Source: a virus
Reading direction: 5' to 3' (one strand)
IMG/VR virus record: IMGVR_UViG_3300036820_000015
Coordinates: 1 to 64,000 of that record
DNA length: 64,000 nucleotides
The translations under genes were made by a program, and so were the position numbers. Below are positions 1,050 to 27,468 of this stretch, piece by piece. The notes under the pieces were generated by a model. It saw nothing but the letters and a program-made list of their open reading frames with translations. It searched no databases and was not told where the DNA came from. How positions within the stretch are numbered: position 1 is the stretch's first letter; each line of letters opens with the position of its first letter.

Positions 1050-1292
1050 ACCTTCTCCATCGGCCATTCCCCCGCCACCTTGAACAACACCCACACAACA
1101 GCCCCTGTGCGCTAACCTGTCATCCAGGGACCACGGGGAGAGGGCTATGTGCTCCACCCGTTCATCTTCTTCACCCAGCACCTCATCGTTCTGTTCCCGC
1201 GATTCTGGTGAGGGAGTACAGCGATTGGCTCACTGCGCGCGCGGCAGCTGAACGCATGGGGGACGCGCGGATACGCGAACGCGCGAACGCGA

Positions 1293-1324
1293 AACTACCT
1301 CGGGCACTGGAACCCGAGGTAGTT
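1293..1324. terminator. 12-bp perfect hairpin
   Basis: AACTACCTCGGG pairs with CCCGAGGTAGTT across an 8-nt loop. It is a compact factor-independent-type stem without a T-tract. Confidence 0.5.
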
Positions 1325-1499
1325 GTCGCCTCAGCGATTCACCCGATTGGTCGCAGCTGAGTAGCCACACTCTGACATCACCGGGCTGACGCCGGGGGAC
1401 TATCCGATTCGCCTCCCCGAAGAGATACCGGGTGACATCGTCGCGGGAGCGAAGACGGCGCCAGGTCGGAATCTCGCAGTACCGGTGAGCCTACGCGAA

Positions 1500-1527
1500 G
1501 ACTCCCGGGGCTGCAACCCCGGGAGTC
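1500..1527. terminator. strong terminator hairpin downstream of the DUF932 gene
   Basis: GACTCCCGGGG pairs with CCCCGGGAGTC across a 6-nt loop. It lies about 100 nt past the stop of the minus-strand gene at 1626, so it probably stops that transcript and any plus-strand read-through. Confidence 0.65.
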
Positions 1528-1625
1528 TGCTTGCCCTCCGCCCTACTTGTCACGGTGCGAGTGGTGGGCTCCTTACCACACTACCCATTAGGCGGTAGTC
1601 AGCAAACACCGCCAACGGTGCTGAT

Positions 1626-2642
1626 TCAGGCAGCTGCCCGAGTTGTCAGCCAACCGGTGGCCCGATCCCTGACCTCAGCCACGGGGCCGCCGAACACCGT
1701 GCTCAGCATCCTCCGCTCGGCCTTCGGCACCCGCGAGTCCTGCCGGGGGGCCTTGCTGTGCTCGGCCCACTCGGTGACCCCATTGAGTGCTCCCCAGCCG
1801 GTGAACCGCAGGCTCTCGGGGATGGTCTCAGACCTCAACCAACTCCCCTTCATCTGTGCCTGGTTCTCCTTGGCCTTCTTCGCCGTGCGCTCAGGCTTCT
1901 TCTCGCTCGGGAAGAGGAACTCCCCAAGCTCGTCAAACTCCTCGACGGCCAGCTTGCTCTCGGCCAACTTCTGGGCCGTCTCGACGAAGTCAGCCTGGGC
2001 CTGGGTGGCCAGTCCGATCAATCGGTGGGCCTCCTTGGCCTTGGCCACCAGGTCGCCCGTGTGCCGGATCTTCCAACCGGCTTTGGCCCGTGCCTTGCCC
2101 AGCTTGAAGGTGTTGGCACACACCGTCCGCACGTTCACGATGTCACCTTCGAGCCCACTCGACCCGTCCTTGGCATCGCTCAACAGGAACCAGCTGAACC
2201 AGTCGCTGTCGTCCAACTCGGCCAGGCCACGCCCGGCCTCACTGACGACGTCCAAGCGCAAGGTAGCGAAGACCAGCCGGTCGTTGCGCAGGCTGGCCAC
2301 CGTGTCCCACTTGGCGCCCCAGTCATCGACCAGCACGCTGCCCAACTCGATCAGGTCATCGTTCTGGAAGGGGACGTACTTGTTGCCGACGGTGGCGATC
2401 TCCTTCACCGCTCGCCCGTTGACGATCTTCACCACCTTCTGGCTGTCGTGACCGTGGACGAAAATGCCCTCGTCGTTACGCCAGAAGTCAGGCCTCAACT
2501 CGACCTGCCAGTCGAGGGCCTTCTTCGCTTCCTCATCGGTCAGCCAGCCATCGTGGGCCTCTCCCAATCCATGCCAGGGGGTGCCCGTCTTGGCTAGCCG
2601 CTCGTTCTTCACGTAGTGGATGGTCTCCACTTCATGAGCCAT
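1626..2642 (-). CDS. DUF932 phage/plasmid-like protein
   Basis: A 338-residue protein of the DUF932 (TIGR03299) family, found widely on phages and plasmids with no settled biochemical role. Recognisable segments are the N-terminal GTPWHGLG, the VGNKYVPFQNDDL segment, the FATLRLD core and VRTVCANTFKLG in the second half. I start at MAHEVETIHY (2642), behind an AG-rich GAGAGAGA stretch that recurs before other early genes. A longer in-frame start at 2771 has a GAGGAG ribosome site, but its extra 43 residues do not look like the family. Confidence 0.85.
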   Translation of the reverse strand: MAHEVETIHYVKNERLAKTGTPWHGLGEAHDGWLTDEEAKKALDWQVELRPDFWRNDEGIFVHGHDSQKVVKIVNGRAVKEIATVGNKYVPFQNDDLIELGSVLVDDWGAKWDTVASLRNDRLVFATLRLDVVSEAGRGLAELDDSDWFSWFLLSDAKDGSSGLEGDIVNVRTVCANTFKLGKARAKAGWKIRHTGDLVAKAKEAHRLIGLATQAQADFVETAQKLAESKLAVEEFDELGEFLFPSEKKPERTAKKAKENQAQMKGSWLRSETIPESLRFTGWGALNGVTEWAEHSKAPRQDSRVPKAERRMLSTVFGGPVAEVRDRATGWLTTRAAA

Positions 2643-2692
2643 TTTGGATCTCTCTCTCTGTCCAGTCCTGGGCTGTCCAGGAACTCCAGCAG

Positions 2693-2721
2693 ATTCTACA
2701 GTACCCCACAGTAGTGTGCAA
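2693..2721 (-). promoter_or_regulatory. sigma70-type promoter for the DUF932 gene
   Basis: On the minus strand TTGCAC is followed by 17 nt and then TAGAAT, about 50 nt before the ATG at 2642. Both hexamers and the spacing fit a housekeeping promoter. Confidence 0.55.
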
Positions 2722-2816
2722 ACTACCGCCTGACCTGGGGCTACCTTGACGGCAATCCCCCGAGGCCCCATAATCTCCTCGATGTAACTCAGCGCTATAC
2801 CGCAGGAGGTACCAGG

Positions 2817-3218
2817 ATGGGGGGACTCAACCGATGGGTGGAGCAGGCCAGTTGTCTCCAGCTGCGTCGCTCCGGCCAGCTATCGCGAGCCGACACCGAG
2901 CGCCTGTTCTTCCCGGTGCGCGAGAACTCGAAGTTCGATCTGCAGGAGGCCCAGGACATCTGTGCTGAGTGCCCGGTGCTGCGGCAGTGTGGCGAGTTAG
3001 CTCTCTCGCGTAATGAGGAGGAGCACGTCTATGCCGGAATGGCCGGGGCCACGCGCCGCGTGCTACGGCGCCGGGTCCGCAAGGGGGAGGTGACCGTCGA
3101 TGGTGGCTTCTGGGCTAGCCATAGGGCACTGCTCCGGGTGGCGGCCGCTCATCGTCGGGCTCAACGCGCGGCAGCTGCAGAGGCTGCCCGCGCCATGGAA
3201 TCGGCGGTGGCCGTTTAG
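2817..3218 (+). CDS. whiB: WhiB-like Fe-S transcriptional regulator
   Basis: A 133-residue WhiB-family protein. Four cysteines (C13, C49, C52, C58) follow the family spacing for a [4Fe-4S] cluster. DTERLFFP and CAECPVLRQC are standard, and YAGMAGATRRVLRRR takes the place of the G(V/I)WGG turn and basic DNA- or sigma-binding tail. WhiB proteins are restricted to Actinobacteria and their phages, where they redirect host transcription. AGGAGGT sits 7 nt before the ATG. The C-terminal Ala/Arg-rich tail overlaps the convergent gene at 3115. Confidence 0.9.
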   Translation: MGGLNRWVEQASCLQLRRSGQLSRADTERLFFPVRENSKFDLQEAQDICAECPVLRQCGELALSRNEEEHVYAGMAGATRRVLRRRVRKGEVTVDGGFWASHRALLRVAAAHRRAQRAAAAEAARAMESAVAV

Positions 3219-3420
3219 ATCGCTTCACCTTCATCGGTGGACGGCACTTCTTACCGGTGGGACTGACCATCACCTCGTACTTGCAGACCTGGCAGATCCA
3301 CTCAATGGGATCGCGCGATAACTGATCCGAGTTGAGTATGGCCCCCCCTCCGCAGCGCGGACATTGTGGTGTATACGCCGCGCGCGCGGAGAGGATGGCC
3401 GGAGTTTTAGGGAGCCGCAT
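3115..3420 (-). CDS. small zinc-ribbon protein
   Basis: A 101-residue protein with a CPRCG...CQVCK zinc ribbon (C20, C23, C43, C46) followed by a basic, proline-rich tail. It overlaps the 3' end of convergent whiB by about 100 nt, so part of the tail may not be needed. It is the last gene of the minus-strand operon that begins near 5391. Function is unknown. Confidence 0.6.
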   Translation of the reverse strand: MRLPKTPAILSARAAYTPQCPRCGGGAILNSDQLSRDPIEWICQVCKYEVMVSPTGKKCRPPMKVKRSKRPPPIPWRGQPLQLPRVEPDDERPPPGAVPYG

Positions 3421-3432
3421 AACGCGCGGAGG

Positions 3433-3786
3433 TCACGGCTTCCAGTTTCCCTCATCCATCCACTCCGCCACCCGCTCACCATCGAACACCAAGATCCCAT
3501 CGTCCGTACTTCTCATCCCCGGGAACTTCTTCTGATAAGCCGCATCCAACTCCACGGCCTCGGTCAGCAAATGATCGTCCCACTCGGCTTCGGTCATGTA
3601 CCCGTTGTCGATCAGCACACGCGTGAGCGCACTGACCTCCACGCGCAGCAGCATGCTGAGTTCGCGGTGGTCTCTCAGCGCATCACTCTCGGGCTCCCCC
3701 TTTGGCCGTGTACCCAGCTGCCAACCGGCGAATACCGTGCGCCACTTGGCCAGCTTGTTCAGCGCCTCCAGCGTCTTAGCCCTCAT
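3433..3786 (-). CDS. conserved phage protein, unknown function
   Basis: A 117-residue, mostly helical soluble protein rich in charged residues, beginning MRAKTLEALNKLAKWR. Its ATG overlaps the stop of the upstream gene (ATGA at 3783-3786), so it is translationally coupled. It resembles small hypothetical proteins common in actinophage early regions. No catalytic motif is visible. Confidence 0.8.
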   Translation of the reverse strand: MRAKTLEALNKLAKWRTVFAGWQLGTRPKGEPESDALRDHRELSMLLRVEVSALTRVLIDNGYMTEAEWDDHLLTEAVELDAAYQKKFPGMRSTDDGILVFDGERVAEWMDEGNWKP

Positions 3787-4175
3787 GATCCGGTCGCTGA
3801 ATCGAACATGTCCTGGAACCGCTTCGCATCGTCGGGACTTATCTGCTCAACTTGAGCAATCAGGTCAGGAATCAAGGTTGCCGACTTCTTACTGGCGGCC
3901 TTTTCGATCTTGAGAATGACTTCAGTGGCTGATTGCCCAGTCCCCTCACTCAAGAGAGCGACAGCTGTGCCGAGGAAGATGAGCAACGGCTGCACGGCGT
4001 CACTGTCGTATAGGGATGAGATAAGCGTATGGCCTTCTTGCCAGTCTCCCTCAGCCATGGTCTGAACGGCCGCACACACTACGGTCCGGACAAAGATCGC
4101 CCATTCCTCATAACTCAACAGCCCATCGCGATAGCGTTGGACTGTCTGTAGAATCCTTTCACCCTCCTCATTCAT
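3783..4175 (-). CDS. hypothetical helical protein
   Basis: A 130-residue acidic, helical protein (MNEEGERILQTVQRYRDG...) without recognisable domains. I chose ATG 4175 rather than 4196 because it forms an exact ATGA overlap with the stop of the upstream 55-residue gene and has a GAGGAG-like site about 12 nt upstream. It is coupled downstream to the gene at 3786. Confidence 0.75.
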   Translation of the reverse strand: MNEEGERILQTVQRYRDGLLSYEEWAIFVRTVVCAAVQTMAEGDWQEGHTLISSLYDSDAVQPLLIFLGTAVALLSEGTGQSATEVILKIEKAASKKSATLIPDLIAQVEQISPDDAKRFQDMFDSATGS

Positions 4176-4339
4176 TTCGCTGCACACTCCTCGCATAGAG
4201 CCTCAACCATCATTGGTCGCGGACTGGTGAACAACCACTCTTGGCACACTGAGCAGAACACGTCATAGGCAGTAGGCGGCACTGTCTCCGATGCCTGCAT
4301 CTTGGGGAGATCGCGGAAGATAATCATGCCATCAGGCAT
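4172..4339 (-). CDS. 55-residue zinc-ribbon microprotein
   Basis: It begins MPDGMIIFRDLPKM and carries CSVC...CEEC, a four-cysteine zinc ribbon. Its ATG overlaps the end of the interrupted gene 4332-4640 and its stop overlaps the next ATG, so it sits inside a coupled operon. Only the last 55 residues of a longer open frame look coding. Function is unknown. Confidence 0.7.
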   Translation of the reverse strand: MPDGMIIFRDLPKMQASETVPPTAYDVFCSVCQEWLFTSPRPMMVEALCEECAAK

Positions 4340-4640
4340 TGTTCTTCGCCCTGGTCTCATCCAATAGAGCCGACTTCTCTTCCGCCACTTTGTTGAAATC
4401 AATCCCGAAATACTGAGCCAGCACGCGTTCAATGTTCTTCCGTACCGGCCACAACTGATCGCTGTGGTATCAGTCGCTCCCCGGCTCACACTTAGGAATG
4501 ACCTCACCTTCAACCGAAGCATCCCAGTCGATATGGACCCACTCAGCGAGGACGTGGCCAGCAGTATCAAGAAACTCACCGATGGCTTGGCTCTGTTCGT
4601 GGGCAGCATGCATCTTGTCGCACTCGGGGGTCTTAAGCAT
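4332..4640 (-). pseudogene. conserved actinophage protein interrupted by in-frame TGA
   Basis: Reading from ATG 4640 gives MLKTPECDKMHAAHEQSQ... for 56 codons, then TGA at 4472-4470, then 45 further codons in the same frame (...VLAQYFGIDFNKVAEEKSAL...) ending at a TGA that overlaps the next gene's ATG. The TPECDK start and the YFGIDxxKVxxEKxALL end are, from memory, the two ends of one small conserved actinophage protein. The frame is therefore intact except for one nonsense codon. Options are a point mutation, a base-call error, or read-through. Confidence 0.7.
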
Positions 4641-5088
4641 CGGCCTTCACTCCGGCCTTCACTCCGGCCTTCACTCCTCGCGCCGCCAACAGCTTCATCC
4701 AGGCCTCCTGCAGATCGTCAAAGGTGATGTACGCCGTCGACTTGCCCTGTCTCCAAACTAAACCATCGGAGAAGCCAAGGTGCTCACTTACTCTGACAGC
4801 CCTGGCCGTGTTGTATTTGTCCGGGCGCAGACCACCAATCAGTTGAGTGATCCAGCTATTGGCTTCACCGAACAGGTTATTGACAGCATAGGTATAGCCA
4901 TACTCCTCCATTGGACGCGCCGCCTCAGCGAACACCTGCCCGCAAATGCAGTATTCGCCATCAGAGAGTCGCAAAGTCTCGGGATCGATTCTCTTCTCCC
5001 AACCCTCGAAGTTCTCGTCCAGCCATTTAGCGCCCAACCGCACGCGCCTATTGGCTTCTTTCTGCGTGTCTGTCAGCTTGGTAGTCAT
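4633..5088 (-). CDS. hypothetical protein with C-terminal GVKA repeats
   Basis: A 151-residue protein starting MTTKLTDTQKEANRRVR. It contains an EYCICGQVF segment and ends in three four-residue repeats (AGVK). The ATG at 5088 overlaps the TGA that ends the upstream gene in its corrected frame, and GGAG lies 7 nt upstream. As sequenced, the upstream gene runs into this one without a stop because of one extra base, giving an artificial 252-codon frame from 5391. Function is unknown. Confidence 0.75.
   Translation of the reverse strand: MTTKLTDTQKEANRRVRLGAKWLDENFEGWEKRIDPETLRLSDGEYCICGQVFAEAARPMEEYGYTYAVNNLFGEANSWITQLIGGLRPDKYNTARAVRVSEHLGFSDGLVWRQGKSTAYITFDDLQEAWMKLLAARGVKAGVKAGVKADA
4641..4676 (+). 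repeat. 12-nt tandem repeat, three copies
   Basis: CGGCCTTCACTC is repeated three times. It encodes the C-terminal GVKA repeats of the minus-strand gene at 4633, a likely slippage site. Confidence 0.8.
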
Positions 5089-5391
5089 AGGTACTCCACC
5101 CCATCCCACGTGTTCTCGGCCACCGTGTACCCGGCCCCGGTGCTCCTCGTGCAGCAGCACCAACGGCCGACGGTTCACCGTACCGATCCTGACCCCAGCC
5201 CCGTGCAACCGCGCGCGGAACTCCCCATCCAGCCCCTTCAACTCCTTCCTCAGATCCCGTTCCTCGGCGCCGATCACCGACAGCCGCGCCTTGATGGCCC
5301 GGGCCCGCAGTACCTTCTCGGCGGCCCCCCGGCCCAAGCCGACGGTCCCCCTGTGCCCGGTCTCTCTCTCCAACGAACTCACCGTGACCAT
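5085..5391 (-). pseudogene. conserved early protein with a one-base frameshift
   Basis: The start at 5391 follows a doubled GGAGAGAGATG-type ribosome site. The frame encodes a coiled-coil-like stretch (RARAIKARLSVIGAEERDLR...) and VNRRPLVLLHEEHRG. Just after this, shifting one base at the CCCC run (5135-5138) gives YTVAENTWDGVEYL and a TGA overlapping the next ATG. The interval is 307 nt, exactly one base more than a multiple of three. As read, the product fuses to the downstream gene. Confidence 0.7.
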
Positions 5392-14550: not shown

Positions 14551-14873
14551 CTGTCCATCCTCTGACTGATGATGACGAGGCCATCTATCAACGTTTGTGC
14601 ATGCTCATCTCTGAAGCGGGGTACTCTTCGGAATGGGTGAATCGGGTCGGACGATTGACTGACTGTCTGACGGTTACAGCTACCGATCATGGCAAAGAGG
14701 TTATTCCTGCTGAAGTGTGTTGGAAGGCCTTCGATCTCGCATACGGCCGGACGCTTGGCGAAACTGAAGGCATCGTTGAGGGGAAACTCCACTGGGGAGT
14801 CGACCGAAGGACGGGGCTCATTTTCGCTGAGGTCTATGGGAATCGCCAAGAAGATGACGACGCATCCTCCTAA
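14547..14873 (+). CDS. hypothetical protein
   Basis: A 108-residue protein from GTG 14547 (TVHPLTDDDEAIYQRLCMLISEAG). The N-terminal half is helical and acidic and the C-terminal half beta-rich (GKLHWGVDRRTGLIFAEVYG). It overlaps the HNH gene downstream. No family is recognised. Confidence 0.65.
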   Translation: MTVHPLTDDDEAIYQRLCMLISEAGYSSEWVNRVGRLTDCLTVTATDHGKEVIPAEVCWKAFDLAYGRTLGETEGIVEGKLHWGVDRRTGLIFAEVYGNRQEDDDASS

Positions 14874-15318
14874 GTTCGACATGAGCGGAAGCGTGCTATG
14901 GCAGAACTGTGTGGAGTGGGAACTCTCGTGTGACAGGTACGGATACGGACAGGTAATGATTACCGTGGCCCCCAAGCAGCGGCGTCTCATGCGTGTCCAT
15001 CGTGCTGCTTGGGTGGCTATCTTTGGTGAGATTCCACCTGAGGTCCATCTGCTCCATCGCTGTGATAATCCACCCTGCTATAACCTGAAGCACTTATTCA
15101 TTGGCGACCAGGCAGGCAACATGGTCGACAAGATTCGCAAAGGTCGCCAGCCGATTGCTTACAAGTTCAAGGAACGCGAGGGTCCACTGACAGCAGAGGA
15201 GATGCAAGAAGCCGAGAAACTAATAGCTCAAGGACTCTCGCAGGCCGTTGTGGGAAATATATTCAATGTCAGTCGGAGTTATATTGCCAAACGATTTAGA
15301 ATATCGGCGCTCCGATGA
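14836..15318 (+). CDS. HNH homing endonuclease
   Basis: A 160-residue HNH_3-type endonuclease. The motif LHRCDNPPCYNLKHLFIGD with NMVDKIRKGR matches the H...N...H core of phage free-standing homing nucleases. The last 40 residues (GLSQAVVGNIFNVSRSYIAK) form a helix-turn-helix likely to choose the DNA target. GAGGT precedes ATG 14836. It sits between portal and the MuF gene, a frequent landing place for such elements, and its stop overlaps the next ATG. Confidence 0.88.
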   Translation: MGIAKKMTTHPPKFDMSGSVLWQNCVEWELSCDRYGYGQVMITVAPKQRRLMRVHRAAWVAIFGEIPPEVHLLHRCDNPPCYNLKHLFIGDQAGNMVDKIRKGRQPIAYKFKEREGPLTAEEMQEAEKLIAQGLSQAVVGNIFNVSRSYIAKRFRISALR

Positions 15319-21181: not shown

Positions 21182-24100
21182 GTGCAGGCGCTCCCGATCA
21201 GGCTGAGGAAAGACGGTCCCTCTCAGTCAGATGTCCACACCGACGGTCCCGGCACCATCGGCCCCGTCTGCACCTTCTCTCCCGGCCCTGGCTTCAAGAC
21301 GTGTCCGAAGTGTGGTGGCGACCCGAGCACGCACATGGCGCCCCCGAGTATTGCTCAGCTGGAGAAGGACAGAGCAGTCGCTCAGCCCCTCCGTTGCCCG
21401 AAGTGTGGGAGCACAGATACCGGCCTCCTCCCTCCCGACTTCGAGACACTGAAGTGCCATGCGTGTGAGAGGAATTCTCCTTTCATCAAAGCGGCTATCT
21501 CTGTCGCTGGCCTCTGCGTCAAAGCTATTGACACCGGCCGCGTCCTACTCATCGAGCGAGGAGTTGACCCCAATGACCCAGCCTCCGAATGTTTCGAGTT
21601 CCCCGGCGGCCACCTCAACCCCGGAGAATCCCCCGCTGACGCAGCACTCCGCGAGTGGGCCGAAGAGGTCGGCGTCCATCCTCCACCCGGTTACTTCCTC
21701 TCAACTTGGACCCATGGGATCTATCGAGGCTTCATTTATCTCACTGCTACCGAGACCATTTCACCCGAGCACTGGCACGCTCACAGCAATCCCGACAATC
21801 CTGACGGGGATGTAGTCGAGAGTGCGATGTGGGTCGATCCGCGCGCTGCGCGGAGTTTCACTGATCTACGCGCTGAGCTAAAGGGGGACACTGCTCTCTG
21901 GGACCAGATTGAACGAGCCGGGACACCGTATGCATTACTCCCCATCTCGCTCTACAAGGAGGCTGCTGGCCACCCCTTTCGCGGCAACCAGTACACCGGT
22001 GGTGTCGCCTCCGCCCAGATGGGCTCCAACTCCGAACTCGAACGACACGCTCACGCCTACTCCAACTCCATCGGCCTTTCGCGCCCCACCGACATCGATT
22101 ACTCCAAAGTGAAAGTCGACACGCCCACGGCCAAGTCCATCGCGCGCGCCTATGACGCTCTCCCCAAACGCGATCCCGAGGCCTCTCCCGCCTTCGCCCA
22201 GATGGCCAAGGAGATCGAGCAGCAGTACGCCTATCTGACCGGGCCCATGGGCATCAAGGTTGATGTAACGCGCGAAGACCCTTACGCCACGGTCCAGGAG
22301 ATGCAGCACGATGTCACGCAGAACCACCACATCTCGGTGCTCTCGACTGCCCTCACCGGTCATCACCCCTACTTCACCGACGAGCAGAACGATCACTTCC
22401 GGGCCGTCCACGACACCTTCGGACATGCAGCCACCGGTCGTGGTTTCGACCGCCATGGCGAGGAGGCAGCCTGGCTATCCCATTCTCTGATGTTCTCTCC
22501 CCTGGCGCGTCGCGCTATGACCACTGAGACACGCGGCCAGAACTCCGTGCTCACCCAAGAGCGTCACGGCTTCCCCGAGCAGAAGGTGGCACTGCTGCCG
22601 GACAAGTTCTCTACCATCCCTAACTCAATCATCCGCAAGATGATGAGGAAAGCATTAGTGGCGCAGTCGACTCTGCGGCACTGTATTGCTGGGCGCGCTC
22701 AGTTGGACCGGATGCAGTGGCAGCCACCATTCGCCAAAGGATTCTTCCCATTCCTCAAGTTGGGTAATGTCACTTGGGACGAACAGAAACACCCGCGCGG
22801 CCAGCCCACCAACGCTGGAGAGTTCGCATCAGACCCCGGTGGTGGGAGTAAGAAGCCAAAGGGGATTGGCAGAAAGACTATGGGCTCAGCCACTCCCGTC
22901 ACCGACGATGATGTCCCCGGCGACAACATTCAGAACCATGAGGGCACAGCCACTCTCAACGAGGCTATGCAGGATCAGGAGGCTAAAGCTGGAGGTTCGG
23001 GACAGGCTAAAGCTCAGGTGGCCCATCTGGTGTCGGCCGATATGGTGGATAACTGGGGGGACAGGTTCGATGCCAACTTTATGAGGTCTCGGAGCATCAG
23101 CCCGGAAGACCTGAAGATTCCAGGGGCACTCGTTGTGAAGAACCTCAACGACGGCTCGGTGAACGTCTGGAAGCCAAGTAAGCACACGGGTGGGATTGGC
23201 TCCTTTTCGATAAGTTTCAATGAGCGCAAGCAAGCTGTCCCGGCCAACTCCCCCGAAGCCCTCACCGCTATCCGCGAAGGCGGAGTCTCCTCCCTCATCT
23301 CCCTCTGGGCCGGTTCCTCCAACGACTCCTCCGACAAGTCCCTGGCCATCCAAGACGCCGCCATCGCTGAGTTCGGACTCAAGAACACCTCCGAGTGGAC
23401 CGAGTACCGTAACCCTGACTCCGTCAAAGAGGAGTTCGACAAGAACGGTGACATGTACCGAGCCTTCCTCCGCTCCCAGTACAACGTCACCCAGAAGGAC
23501 CTGGCTGCACGCGGCGTCACTACCGTCATGTTGGAGCGCGGCGTCAAAGACGACCCTGAGACCAACGACGCTGAGGACAATGGTGATGGCACGGCCACGG
23601 TCAAGATGCGGCCACTCTCCTCCTGGTCAGTCAACCCCGACACTGCTGAGAACTCCTTTGGCAGTGGGGGGACGACGTATCGCGCTGAGTTTCCGGCCAA
23701 CCGGATTCTTTCCACCACCCTGACCGGATTTGGCTGCCTGGGTGAGAGTGAGGTGGTGCCGCTGGGGGATCAGGAGACGGTGGGTCTCGTGGGTGGGCAG
23801 TGGAATGGTGAGAGTCAGTCCTCTATCAATGAGGAGTGGGCATCTAATGGGCCGCAACAGGAGTGGGCTGACAACATCACCGAGGGATCTGATGAGACCT
23901 ATAGCGAGGATGATCTCAGCAGTATGTGGGCTGAAGAGATGGAGTCGCAGAACTCTGATGCCGTTGCCGCTTGGCTCTCAGGCCAGGACGATATAGAGAA
24001 TCTCACTACCAAACAGGAATGGGCTGAGAGCTATACCTCCGACTATGACGCAGCCTCAGCTGAAGGCCCTGTCACTTCGGAGGAGCTTGATGACGGTTGG

Positions 24101-24661
24101 ACTGGCCATGTTGACGATGAGAACGTCGACACTCTGAACCAGTTCCTTGGCCCCCACCCCGAAGCGAAGGACTGGACGCTCCAGTGGGCGAAGACACAGG
24201 GTGCCGGGTTCTTCAACTATGCCGGGCCAACAGTCGGAGTGCTCATTGACCCGAAGCTGATTGGTGACGGCGTGATGCTGAATGCAGGGGAGTTGGATAA
24301 AGCGTGGGAGAACCACCTCGAAGGCCTCGATAAGCTGAACGAGGGACCATCCGCAGATCAGGACCAAGGACAGAAGCCCTCACTCCCGGGCATGGCTCAG
24401 TTTGCTGGACCTACTGGCGGCAACACATACAAGCCGGTCGGCCCCGGCGTCCTCCCTCTCGGCCTGAAGCTAGGGAAGCCGACACCATCAAAGGATGGAC
24501 CGAAGCTCCTCGACGTGGGCCAGGACAAGTTCCTTAATGCTGATGACCAACCACCCTCCTTCGGCATCGGATGGCAGAAGATCGGTCCGCACAAGTACAA
24601 AGCAGCTTCGGGAGTCATCGCTACCCAGGACCCAAAGACGAAGAAGTGGAGCGAGGAGTAA
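21182..24661 (+). CDS. zinc-ribbon / Nudix hydrolase / ADP-ribosyltransferase-like giant protein
   Basis: 1,159 residues. Two zinc ribbons at 41-95 (CPKCGG, CPKCGS, CHACE). Residues 105-235 form a Nudix domain with a perfect box from G143 to V165 (GX5EX7REUXEEXGU; E161, E162). At 263-274 is HPFRGNQYTGG, and at 380-455 a His-rich conserved block (HDTFGHAATG, GEEAAW, TTETRGQNS) I cannot name. At 532-549 is a WDEQKHPRGQPTNAGEF linker of the kind found next to phage head-protein effector domains. Residues about 740-862 look like an R-S-E ADP-ribosyltransferase: R786 in MLERGV, SSWS at 813-816, ExE at E855-E857. The rest is acidic with EWA repeats. It lies in the head module, so it could be packaged and injected. 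The Nudix call is strong and the ART call is by motif. Confidence 0.8.
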   Translation: MQALPIRLRKDGPSQSDVHTDGPGTIGPVCTFSPGPGFKTCPKCGGDPSTHMAPPSIAQLEKDRAVAQPLRCPKCGSTDTGLLPPDFETLKCHACERNSPFIKAAISVAGLCVKAIDTGRVLLIERGVDPNDPASECFEFPGGHLNPGESPADAALREWAEEVGVHPPPGYFLSTWTHGIYRGFIYLTATETISPEHWHAHSNPDNPDGDVVESAMWVDPRAARSFTDLRAELKGDTALWDQIERAGTPYALLPISLYKEAAGHPFRGNQYTGGVASAQMGSNSELERHAHAYSNSIGLSRPTDIDYSKVKVDTPTAKSIARAYDALPKRDPEASPAFAQMAKEIEQQYAYLTGPMGIKVDVTREDPYATVQEMQHDVTQNHHISVLSTALTGHHPYFTDEQNDHFRAVHDTFGHAATGRGFDRHGEEAAWLSHSLMFSPLARRAMTTETRGQNSVLTQERHGFPEQKVALLPDKFSTIPNSIIRKMMRKALVAQSTLRHCIAGRAQLDRMQWQPPFAKGFFPFLKLGNVTWDEQKHPRGQPTNAGEFASDPGGGSKKPKGIGRKTMGSATPVTDDDVPGDNIQNHEGTATLNEAMQDQEAKAGGSGQAKAQVAHLVSADMVDNWGDRFDANFMRSRSISPEDLKIPGALVVKNLNDGSVNVWKPSKHTGGIGSFSISFNERKQAVPANSPEALTAIREGGVSSLISLWAGSSNDSSDKSLAIQDAAIAEFGLKNTSEWTEYRNPDSVKEEFDKNGDMYRAFLRSQYNVTQKDLAARGVTTVMLERGVKDDPETNDAEDNGDGTATVKMRPLSSWSVNPDTAENSFGSGGTTYRAEFPANRILSTTLTGFGCLGESEVVPLGDQETVGLVGGQWNGESQSSINEEWASNGPQQEWADNITEGSDETYSEDDLSSMWAEEMESQNSDAVAAWLSGQDDIENLTTKQEWAESYTSDYDAASAEGPVTSEELDDGWTGHVDDENVDTLNQFLGPHPEAKDWTLQWAKTQGAGFFNYAGPTVGVLIDPKLIGDGVMLNAGELDKAWENHLEGLDKLNEGPSADQDQGQKPSLPGMAQFAGPTGGNTYKPVGPGVLPLGLKLGKPTPSKDGPKLLDVGQDKFLNADDQPPSFGIGWQKIGPHKYKAASGVIATQDPKTKKWSEE

Positions 24662-25159: not shown

Positions 25160-25395
25160 GCCGTCTTGGGAGGGGGTGGGCGGGATATGCGACCACTAAC
25201 AGCCAGCCAGCCGTTATGGAGCCGTCCACTTCCTCCCACCTAGGTCGGGGCCCGGAGGCTGGAGTCATGGAACCAGCTGGTCGGCTTACGAGGTGTCTCC
25301 TGCTGCGGATGGTGGCTTCAGGCCCAACTGACGTCGGCTACCGGGTCCCGACCTAGTCCATCCCCCGCTCCCCCACCCGTGCCATCCTGGGTGCT
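25160..25395 (+). other. intergenic region with structured RNA and promoter
   Basis: No gene was seen. It holds the long stem at 25240-25356 and, at 25361-25388, a variant late motif (TCCCCCGCTCCCCCACC) with CATCCT 7 nt before the ATG at 25396. Confidence 0.5.
25240..25356 (+). ncRNA. putative structured RNA closed by a 16-bp stem
   Basis: CTAGGTCGGGGCCCGG (25240-25255) pairs with CCGGGTCCCGACCTAG (25341-25356), with a single G-U pair, enclosing 85 nt. That interior contains further short complements such as CCAGCTGG. It lies between a membrane peptide and the intein-bearing protease, directly before a promoter motif. It may be a terminator-like leader element or a small RNA. No known riboswitch or tRNA pattern is evident. 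Confidence 0.45.
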
Positions 25396-27468
25396 ATGAC
25401 CACCCTTCTCGATGCCGCTGAGTCCACTGCCTTTGCCGAGATGCCGGACGACCGGCTCATTTCGGCTGAGGATGGACTGCACAAAATGTTCGCCGTGAAG
25501 AAAGCAGCTGGGCTCGACACCGTCGAACTCCAGTCGGCTCACACTCTGCTCGCCCGGCAGATGTTCAAGCGGGGCCTCTTCTACGAGCCCCTCACCGCCG
25601 AGCCTGCTCCCCTGGCCCCGGCTCCCGAGACCCAGGTGCGCAAGGACATCGGGCCGCACTCCTACTTCTCGGGCTGTTGTGACTTCTCTGCCACCGATCA
25701 CATGGCCAAGGCCGTCGGCACCGATGGCTCTCTCGGCAAGGCTCTCGCCTCCACCACCGAGGACCGCCAGCAGGGAGCCGAGAACGGCCTCGCTCTGCCC
25801 GATGGGTGTCTGGCTGCCGAGACACTGGTCACCACTTTGGATGGCCCCCAGCGGATCGACTCCCTCCTCGGCCCCTGCACCGTCCTGACCGATCAGGGCT
25901 GGGTGGAGGCTGAGGTCCGAGACTTTGGTCTCGGGACCCTCTTCGAGGTGGTGCTTCGACGTGGGTCCGAGGAACGGACAATCAGCGCCACTCTCAACCA
26001 CCGCTGGGTTACAACCGATGGCACCTTCGTGACGACCGACCAACTCAGGGATGTGGAAATCCCCTTCGTCGATATGGCAAACTTTGCCAATGTCATCACG
26101 TCGCGTCCCGCCCGATCAACGCAAGCACTTGCCAGCATTGGTGGTGGGAGGGCCGGAGACGCATCAGGTCTGCTCGAAGTGCGGGAAGAAGAAACCGGTA
26201 GCGGAGTTCTACGTCCGCAAGATTGTCCAGCCCAACCGGTATCGCCGAGACTGCATCAAATGCTGTCTCAAACGGACGACCGAGTACGGGCTGGCGAATC
26301 CCGAGAAGAGTGGACGCAATGCTCGACGGGCGAAGCTCAGGACCTTCGGTCTCACAGAGGATCAGTACGAAGCATTGCTCGACGTTCAGGCCGGGGTCTG
26401 CGCTCTTTGCGGACACTCCGAACGGGACTCGACTCGAAAACGCCTACCAGTGGACCATTCGCATCGGCTTGGGCATGTGCGCGGGCTCTTGTGCGCTTAC
26501 TGCAATCGGCAGTTGGGATGGATCGAATCCATCGGGGTGGGTCGCGTCATCGGATATCTCCTTGGCGAGTCGTTGCTGTTGCAGCAACCTCCCGCACCGA
26601 AACCGTCTACTGCGCTGTAGTCCCTGGGCTCCAGCGTTTCGTCCTGGCTGACGGCATCCTCACCGGGAACTCCTTCTACATCCCCGACGAGGCCCATCTC
26701 CACGCCTGCATCCGTCTCCTCGACCAAGCTCCCGACCCCCAGTCGGCCATGAACCACATCATCGAACGGGCTAAAGCCATGGGGCTCGAATCGGCACTCC
26801 CTCCGGCTTGGCGTACCGGTGACGGCACTCCCGACGCCACCGATCCAGCCATCAGTGACGGTGCCCACTCCATCGCTCCCGGCACCGCCCCCACTGCCTC
26901 TGGCCCACCGCGCGCCGGAGCTACCCAGCCCGCCAAGGCCAAGCCCAAGCCCACCTCGGCTCTCATGAAGGCCATCGCCAAGTCCGTCGTCAACGGCGAG
27001 TTCTCCGAAGACCTCTTCGCCAAGGCGGCCGAGGAGATCACCCTGGACGAGAACATCCCGACCTACTTCGTCATGAAGTCGGCCAACACCACCGAGCGCT
27101 ACACCTTGGGCCCGCTCTACATGCCCAACACCCTCGACGCTCATGGCGAGTGGGCCTCAGCCACCGACCTCTTCAAGGCCCGGCTCGACTATGTGCGCGA
27201 GGGGGACCGGACGATCTACCTCCAGCACTCCACCCACCCGGCCGGGGAGTGGGTCGACATCGTCCAGTGGCCCCAGGAGGTCCGCTCCACCATGCAGGTC
27301 ATGGGAGCCGGTGGCGTGAAAAAGGCCGAGGCCATCACCTTCCCGGCCGACACCGTCTACCTGGGTGTCGTCTGGGAACCGTGGGCCCACACCGAAGTCC
27401 TGAAGGGCAATATCCAGGGCTTCTCCATGGGCGGTTGGGCTCACCGCATCGAGGGTCTGCCCGCCTGA
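25396..27468 (+). CDS. XkdF-type prohead protease, intein-containing
   Basis: A 690-residue precursor. Extein residues 1-137 plus 426-690 join at LPDG/SFYIPDEAHLHACI, giving a 402-residue mature protein. Its C-terminal 150 residues (SANTTERYTLGPLYMPN...YLQHSTHPAGEW...FSMGGW) match the phage XkdF putative serine protease domain, which matures the prohead. The following gene is the scaffold, as expected. Residues 138-425 are an intein. The start ATG has CATCCT at 7-nt spacing. Splicing should be required for activity because the intein breaks the extein. Confidence 0.85.
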   Translation: MTTLLDAAESTAFAEMPDDRLISAEDGLHKMFAVKKAAGLDTVELQSAHTLLARQMFKRGLFYEPLTAEPAPLAPAPETQVRKDIGPHSYFSGCCDFSATDHMAKAVGTDGSLGKALASTTEDRQQGAENGLALPDGCLAAETLVTTLDGPQRIDSLLGPCTVLTDQGWVEAEVRDFGLGTLFEVVLRRGSEERTISATLNHRWVTTDGTFVTTDQLRDVEIPFVDMANFANVITSRPARSTQALASIGGGRAGDASGLLEVREEETGSGVLRPQDCPAQPVSPRLHQMLSQTDDRVRAGESREEWTQCSTGEAQDLRSHRGSVRSIARRSGRGLRSLRTLRTGLDSKTPTSGPFASAWACARALVRLLQSAVGMDRIHRGGSRHRISPWRVVAVAATSRTETVYCAVVPGLQRFVLADGILTGNSFYIPDEAHLHACIRLLDQAPDPQSAMNHIIERAKAMGLESALPPAWRTGDGTPDATDPAISDGAHSIAPGTAPTASGPPRAGATQPAKAKPKPTSALMKAIAKSVVNGEFSEDLFAKAAEEITLDENIPTYFVMKSANTTERYTLGPLYMPNTLDAHGEWASATDLFKARLDYVREGDRTIYLQHSTHPAGEWVDIVQWPQEVRSTMQVMGAGGVKKAEAITFPADTVYLGVVWEPWAHTEVLKGNIQGFSMGGWAHRIEGLPA
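25807..26670 (+). mobile_element. intein (288 residues)
   Basis: It begins CLAAETLVTT (block A, nucleophile Cys1). Block B is TISATLNHRW (TxxH). Block F is ETVYCAVVPGLQRFVLADG, and it ends GILTGN before Ser+1. The penultimate residue is Gly rather than His, a variation known among phage inteins. The roughly 185 residues between B and F are not a homing domain in this frame. They are the shadow of an endonuclease gene in the +1 frame. Confidence 0.88.
26090..26620 (+). CDS. endonuclease VII-family HNH nuclease nested out of frame in the intein
   Basis: A 176-residue protein in the +1 frame of the intein. The N-terminal zinc ribbon is CSKCGKKKPVAEFY...CIKCC. The core is CALCGHSERD, then PVDHSHRLGHVRGLLCAYCN, the endonuclease VII motif with DHxH and RGLLCxxCN. 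Start ATG 26090 is the last sensible one; upstream residues look non-coding. Its TAG stop overlaps the codons of intein block F. It should be the homing enzyme of this intein, but made from its own frame rather than as part of the intein. Confidence 0.82.
   Translation: MSSRRVPPDQRKHLPALVVGGPETHQVCSKCGKKKPVAEFYVRKIVQPNRYRRDCIKCCLKRTTEYGLANPEKSGRNARRAKLRTFGLTEDQYEALLDVQAGVCALCGHSERDSTRKRLPVDHSHRLGHVRGLLCAYCNRQLGWIESIGVGRVIGYLLGESLLLQQPPAPKPSTAL

Follow-up and report, generated by a model that had tools for sequence, protein, structure and literature searches.

How can a single stretch of phage DNA hold an intein and, in another reading frame, a nuclease gene? The question is raised by a head protease gene in the window, as we call the whole 64,000 nt stretch analysed, which comprises positions 1-64,000 of the 77,651-base IMG/VR virus record IMGVR_UViG_3300036820_000015. 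Our answer is that one DNA segment at this locus, the features of which are listed in Table 1, probably serves both a splicing-competent intein and a homing nuclease that is translated separately.

Table 1. Features of the protease locus in the window.
Feature	Position	Strand	Evidence
Host gene for a head maturation protease of the XkdF / S78_2-like type; 690 aa with the intein	25396..27468	+	PF14550, phrog_3017, homology across empty site
Intein, 288 aa; Cys1 at 25807, Asn288 at 26668-26670, then Ser+1	25807..26670	+	Splicing residues, AlphaFold2 fold
N-terminal splicing half (residues 1-96)	25807..26094	+	Block pLDDT mostly 91-98
Intein-frame linker (residues 97-248), predicted disordered, overlapping the nuclease gene	26095..26550	+	pLDDT <50 almost throughout
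C-terminal splicing half (residues 250-288; blocks F, G)	26554..26670	+	pLDDT >90; conserved WxV...ExVYCAVVP...LTGN
Endonuclease VII-family gene, +1 frame; ATGs in frame at 26051 and 26090, the former opening the longest ORF (189 aa)	26051..26620	+	PF02945, phrog_2633, stop avoidance, G+C by codon position
N-terminal zinc-ribbon CxxC...CxxC of the nuclease (C41, C44, C68, C71)	26171..26263	+	Invariant in alignment with antisense nucleases
Endonuclease VII HNH domain (CxxC, VDHSH, CxxCN)	26336..26560	+	PF02945 match, residues 96-170
TAG stop of the nuclease, inside intein block F (VYCAVVP)	26618..26620	+	Sequence

The interrupted protein matches the XkdF/S78_2 family weakly (PF14550, E=3.4e-4, below the Pfam cut-off) and the head maturation protease family phrog_3017 with E=3e-6. 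Across the empty site it is homologous to the capsid maturation protease (gp30) of Gordonia phage ChisanaKitsune, and the full host protein used as query against viral contigs gave matches to the protease domain only. The insertion splits a conserved LPDG-S[FY] motif of the head protease directly after its G (LPDG^S). Homologues with an uninterrupted LPDGS-type site were found in 16 phage records, from Gordonia, Microbacterium and other phages, so that the element sits at a conserved site with intein-free homologues, as is typical of inteins. Elsewhere in the window, a 1159-aa ORF at 21182-24661 (plus strand) encodes a fusion of a Nudix domain with a conserved phage domain (phrog_3170, E=5e-50).

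A preliminary description of this DNA had placed a 288-residue intein with blocks A, B, F and G at 25807-26670 in an XkdF-type protease, and both the splicing residues and the AlphaFold2 model agree with these coordinates. The four blocks are present together with Cys1, the B-block T..H, a terminal Asn and Ser+1. In an alignment of ten inteins (the window and nine relatives) Cys1, T62, H65 and W67 of block B, C269 (F:4), T286 (G:5) and N288 are invariant. AlphaFold2 predicted the splicing (HINT) fold with confidence for residues 1-96 and 250-288 (pLDDT mostly >90), and the predicted disordered stretch is the nuclease region as read in the intein frame. Foldseek searches with the predicted fold returned DnaB, DnaE, gp41-1 and class 3 DnaB inteins as top matches (best E=5e-5), and the intein profile retrieved gp41-1 and DnaB inteins by sequence. 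Rfam gave no match to a group I or group II intron in 25300-27000, even at E up to 1. From its residues and its model the intein looks splicing-competent.

All three residues of the class 3 signature, Trp B:12, Cys F:4 and Thr G:5 (PMC5222942), are present as W67, C269 and T286. With class 3 inteins such as Msm DnaB-1, Mle DnaB and MchDnaB1 (PMC5222942, PMC7664689) the window intein further shares His B:10 and the splicing fold, and His65 and Trp67 carry identical numbers in the Msm and Mle DnaB inteins. Unlike these, it has a Gly before the terminal Asn, an out-of-frame nested nuclease gene and Cys1, the latter found in all ten aligned members. A nucleophile at position 1 is lacking from class 3 inteins according to one paper (PMC7664689) and is not required by them according to another (PMC5222942); because Cys1 is also present, we did not file the intein as class 3.

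By its sequence the nested gene belongs unambiguously to the Endonuclease VII family, with E=4.6e-20 against PF02945 (71.7 bits vs a cut-off of 23.6) and E=1.7e-27 against phrog_2633. All eight Cys of the two zinc-binding sets as well as the DHxH and CN residues are intact. Family, +1 frame and a stop inside block F had been recognised correctly in the preliminary description; its start at 26090 needs to be qualified, as the ORF begins as early as 26051. With the window nuclease as query against viral contigs no relative was retrieved. The PF02945 domain and the zinc and HNH residues are shared with T4 Endonuclease VII and with phage Endonuclease VII-like HNH proteins, and the nuclease fold matches 1e7l/1en7, but with a weak model and an E above 0.01. 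T4 Endonuclease VII is a structure-selective resolvase, whereas the context of the window nuclease points to homing. A second, free-standing HNH endonuclease gene is located at 14689-15318 of the window (plus strand, phrog_1872, E=5e-21).

Is this DNA really coding in both frames? A stop codon arises in the intein frame where a nuclease codon ending in T precedes a codon starting with AA, AG or GA. None of the 34 nuclease codons at which T would create such a stop ends in T, compared with 30 of 154 elsewhere (Fisher p=0.0014), which argues that selection holds the intein frame open through the nuclease gene. The other ORFs of the same window, used as control, show no such avoidance (16.4% vs 18.0%). 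When the nuclease protein and the host codon usage were held fixed over the 189 codons, only 0.15-0.29% of random synonymous recodings left the intein frame free of stops. In the nuclease core the G+C content at the three codon positions is 0.61/0.46/0.69 in the nuclease frame and 0.69/0.61/0.46 in the intein frame, the pattern being host-like in the nuclease frame only, while in the flanking intein DNA of the N-terminal half it follows the intein frame. The earlier proposal that one segment encodes intein linker and nuclease in two frames is thus upheld by two open ORFs and by the stop avoidance. The same signature makes paired sequencing errors unlikely, a concern that had been raised at the outset and that is natural for a single record. 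From two compensating indels that shifted an originally in-frame nuclease domain one would expect neither an intein frame without stops across 189 codons (P 0.0015-0.003) nor the avoidance of T before AA, AG or GA; moreover, the nuclease is out of frame in relatives too, and we regard such an assembly or sequencing artefact as extremely improbable.

These relatives were found by screening viral contigs with a DNA pattern (LPDG followed by the intein start), which led to L022, L031, L038 and L039. The same LPDG^S point is occupied by related inteins in four viral contigs of three lineages (L022/L042, L031/L043, L038/L044 and L039/L045). Homologues with the nuclease simply in frame, which according to the preliminary description would speak against the dual-frame layout, were sought and not found; the comparison with related phages that it had suggested yielded empty sites and same-site inteins with an antisense nuclease. 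A recognisable in-frame nuclease is absent from all four same-site relatives, and the opposite strand of the linker carries an ORF in each. One of these ORFs from each lineage was tested, and all three match PF02945, with E=8e-18 to 5e-17. Two further C-terminal scans gave no additional LPDG-site intein, and the window is the sole example found of a nested nuclease in sense orientation. Between the antisense lineages the nuclease frame is 43-57% identical and the intein frame 25-30%, with divergence greatest at position 3 of the nuclease codons. As the antisense overlap is codon-aligned and intein stops correspond only to the nuclease codons TTA, CTA and TCA, the open intein frame of these relatives (chance 0.06-0.42) is not improbable by itself. 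The inteins of L043 and L044 differ at 1 of 933 bases (99.9% identity) and the 2400 bases downstream at 51 (97.9%), as would be expected from recent spread or from strong dual constraint. This difference from the downstream flank, the common site and the empty alleles are the context from which a homing role of the nuclease is suggested. In L045 the host ORF (1138-5205) has, besides the occupied LPDG site, an MPDGSY motif further upstream that is empty, so that occupied and unoccupied copies of the motif are present within a single gene.

How the nuclease might be translated is less evident from the DNA. No Shine-Dalgarno match was found at ATG 26051 or at ATG 26090, some neighbouring genes being weak in this respect as well, and there is no sigma-70-like promoter near the nuclease, where signals of the host phage's own may differ. 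The absence of recognisable signals would suit a decaying relic of an invading gene, the intein frame alone now being of importance, and homing cycles do end in nuclease decay (PMC3229294). However, the zinc and catalytic residues are all intact without any stop, the G+C content by codon position follows the nuclease frame, and it is this frame that is conserved in the relatives; we consider a relic unlikely. The lack of a Shine-Dalgarno match for an independent start would equally suit programmed +1 frameshifting, by which the nuclease would be joined to the N-terminal half of the intein as an alternative fusion product. Upstream, the nuclease frame extends without a stop to about 26033, and a +1 shift between that point and 26168 would bring about this fusion, but no strong slippery motif was seen by eye. 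Since the antisense relatives cannot use frameshifting, it is ruled out as a general mechanism, and the nuclease evidently works unfused there; also for the window we think that a fusion of this kind is unlikely. We retain the reading of a nuclease translated separately from the intein, presumably from a start of its own.

In the tree of splicing domains the four LPDG inteins group as a single clade (97/96), with the window beside L042 (85/77, not starred), and the other members are 17 in-frame LAGLIDADG inteins at other sites and one mini-intein. A 149-aa mini-intein of the same splicing family, L046 (3001-3447), has no ORF of at least 60 aa in any other frame. In the nuclease tree with 16 rows sense and antisense nucleases are sisters (97/95); in that with 23 rows the antisense genes, three in number, form a group (98/97), while the placement of the window has values of only 58/89. 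The difference in strand implies a flip of the nuclease or its exchange for another one, and as the smaller tree supports the sister relation and the larger one leaves it open, we claim neither inversion nor replacement. A block F scan yielded 48 further contigs, and none of the 14 inteins delimited by script contains an HNH-like ORF in another frame. In actinobacterial chromosomes we found inteins with an in-frame LAGLIDADG domain and also Endonuclease VII genes of the ordinary, free-standing kind. The long antisense ORFs there were judged by eye to look like a by-product of high G+C content. In Morganella phage MP1 (L053, 2300-5544) a free-standing Endonuclease VII gene is followed directly by an anaerobic ribonucleotide reductase gene that bears an intein.

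Among known systems, the in-frame LAGLIDADG inteins of the same splicing family (e.g. L048-L051) resemble the window intein in their splicing blocks and in the linker position of the nuclease. In contrast, their nuclease is of another family and lies within the intein polypeptide, and they mostly have Cys+1, whereas the window has Ser+1. Fractured genes, in which, as Dassa reportedly described in 2009, the two parts of a split intein flank a free-standing endonuclease, likewise have a nuclease that is made separately though inside intein DNA; there, however, the intein is split into two genes, whereas the window intein frame continues without a break across the nuclease gene. Group I introns carry homing endonucleases as free ORFs, sense or antisense, in DNA that does not become part of the host protein. 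As in the window, the nuclease is a separate product whose frame can be independent of that of the host gene, but there is no dual-coding demand, and an intron was not found in the window locus.

The nearest published parallel is the ShiLan element (Arsenault, Gosselin, Gogarten 2025, PMC11855218), an out-of-frame HNH insertion in phage DNA methylases in which the authors could identify neither intein nor intron; a mycobacteriophage methylase with an out-of-frame HNH has also been described (PMC12613952). Like the window element, ShiLan is a homing-type insertion in a phage gene with the host frame open, the HNH in another sense frame and no ribosome-binding site found. It is no intein, lacking intein splicing motifs and fold; its HNH was not placed in Endonuclease VII, and no antisense variants were reported. 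The out-of-frame HNH and the open host frame of the window could thus belong to an insertion of this type that is never spliced, its resemblance to an intein being incidental or vestigial. Against this, the window intein has all splicing residues and the splicing fold and groups in the tree with 17 ordinary inteins, which leaves such an insertion very unlikely. The layout had been called rare at best. For out-of-frame HNH genes in phage insertions as such ShiLan is a published case, though not in an intein; among inteins, our literature searches gave none with an out-of-frame or antisense nuclease. In one model paper (PMC3229294) the nuclease is presented as belonging to the intein itself. We state this novelty with reserve because a preprint on non-canonical actinobacteriophage inteins (10.1101/2025.01.02.630785) may contain an earlier case.

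Our preferred reading is that of a splicing-competent intein at LPDG^S of a phage head protease, with an Endonuclease VII homing gene nested in its linker DNA in another frame. Ribosomes translating the protease frame would read the nuclease DNA into a disordered linker, after which the intein would excise itself. The nuclease would be made alone by internal initiation and would cut intein-free LPDG alleles, whereupon repair would copy the whole intein. In this clade of inteins with the class 3 signature, the in-frame LAGLIDADG domain retained by relatives elsewhere is replaced by an out-of-frame nuclease gene, in sense orientation in the window and antisense in the sister lineages. It seems fairly likely that this clade of phage inteins uncoupled the homing nuclease from its own polypeptide by means of an overprinted gene, once in the sense +1 frame and in antisense in the sisters, with selection acting on both readings in the window.

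Splicing and cutting appear here as two proteins from overlapping frames or opposite strands, as in intron-borne elements, and an intein could thereby acquire, swap or flip its nuclease in an intron-like manner. In searches for in-frame nucleases only, mobile inteins of this sort would be taken for long-linker mini-inteins. The locus also offers a compact natural test of overprinting, in which a permissive disordered linker is paired with a conserved enzyme.
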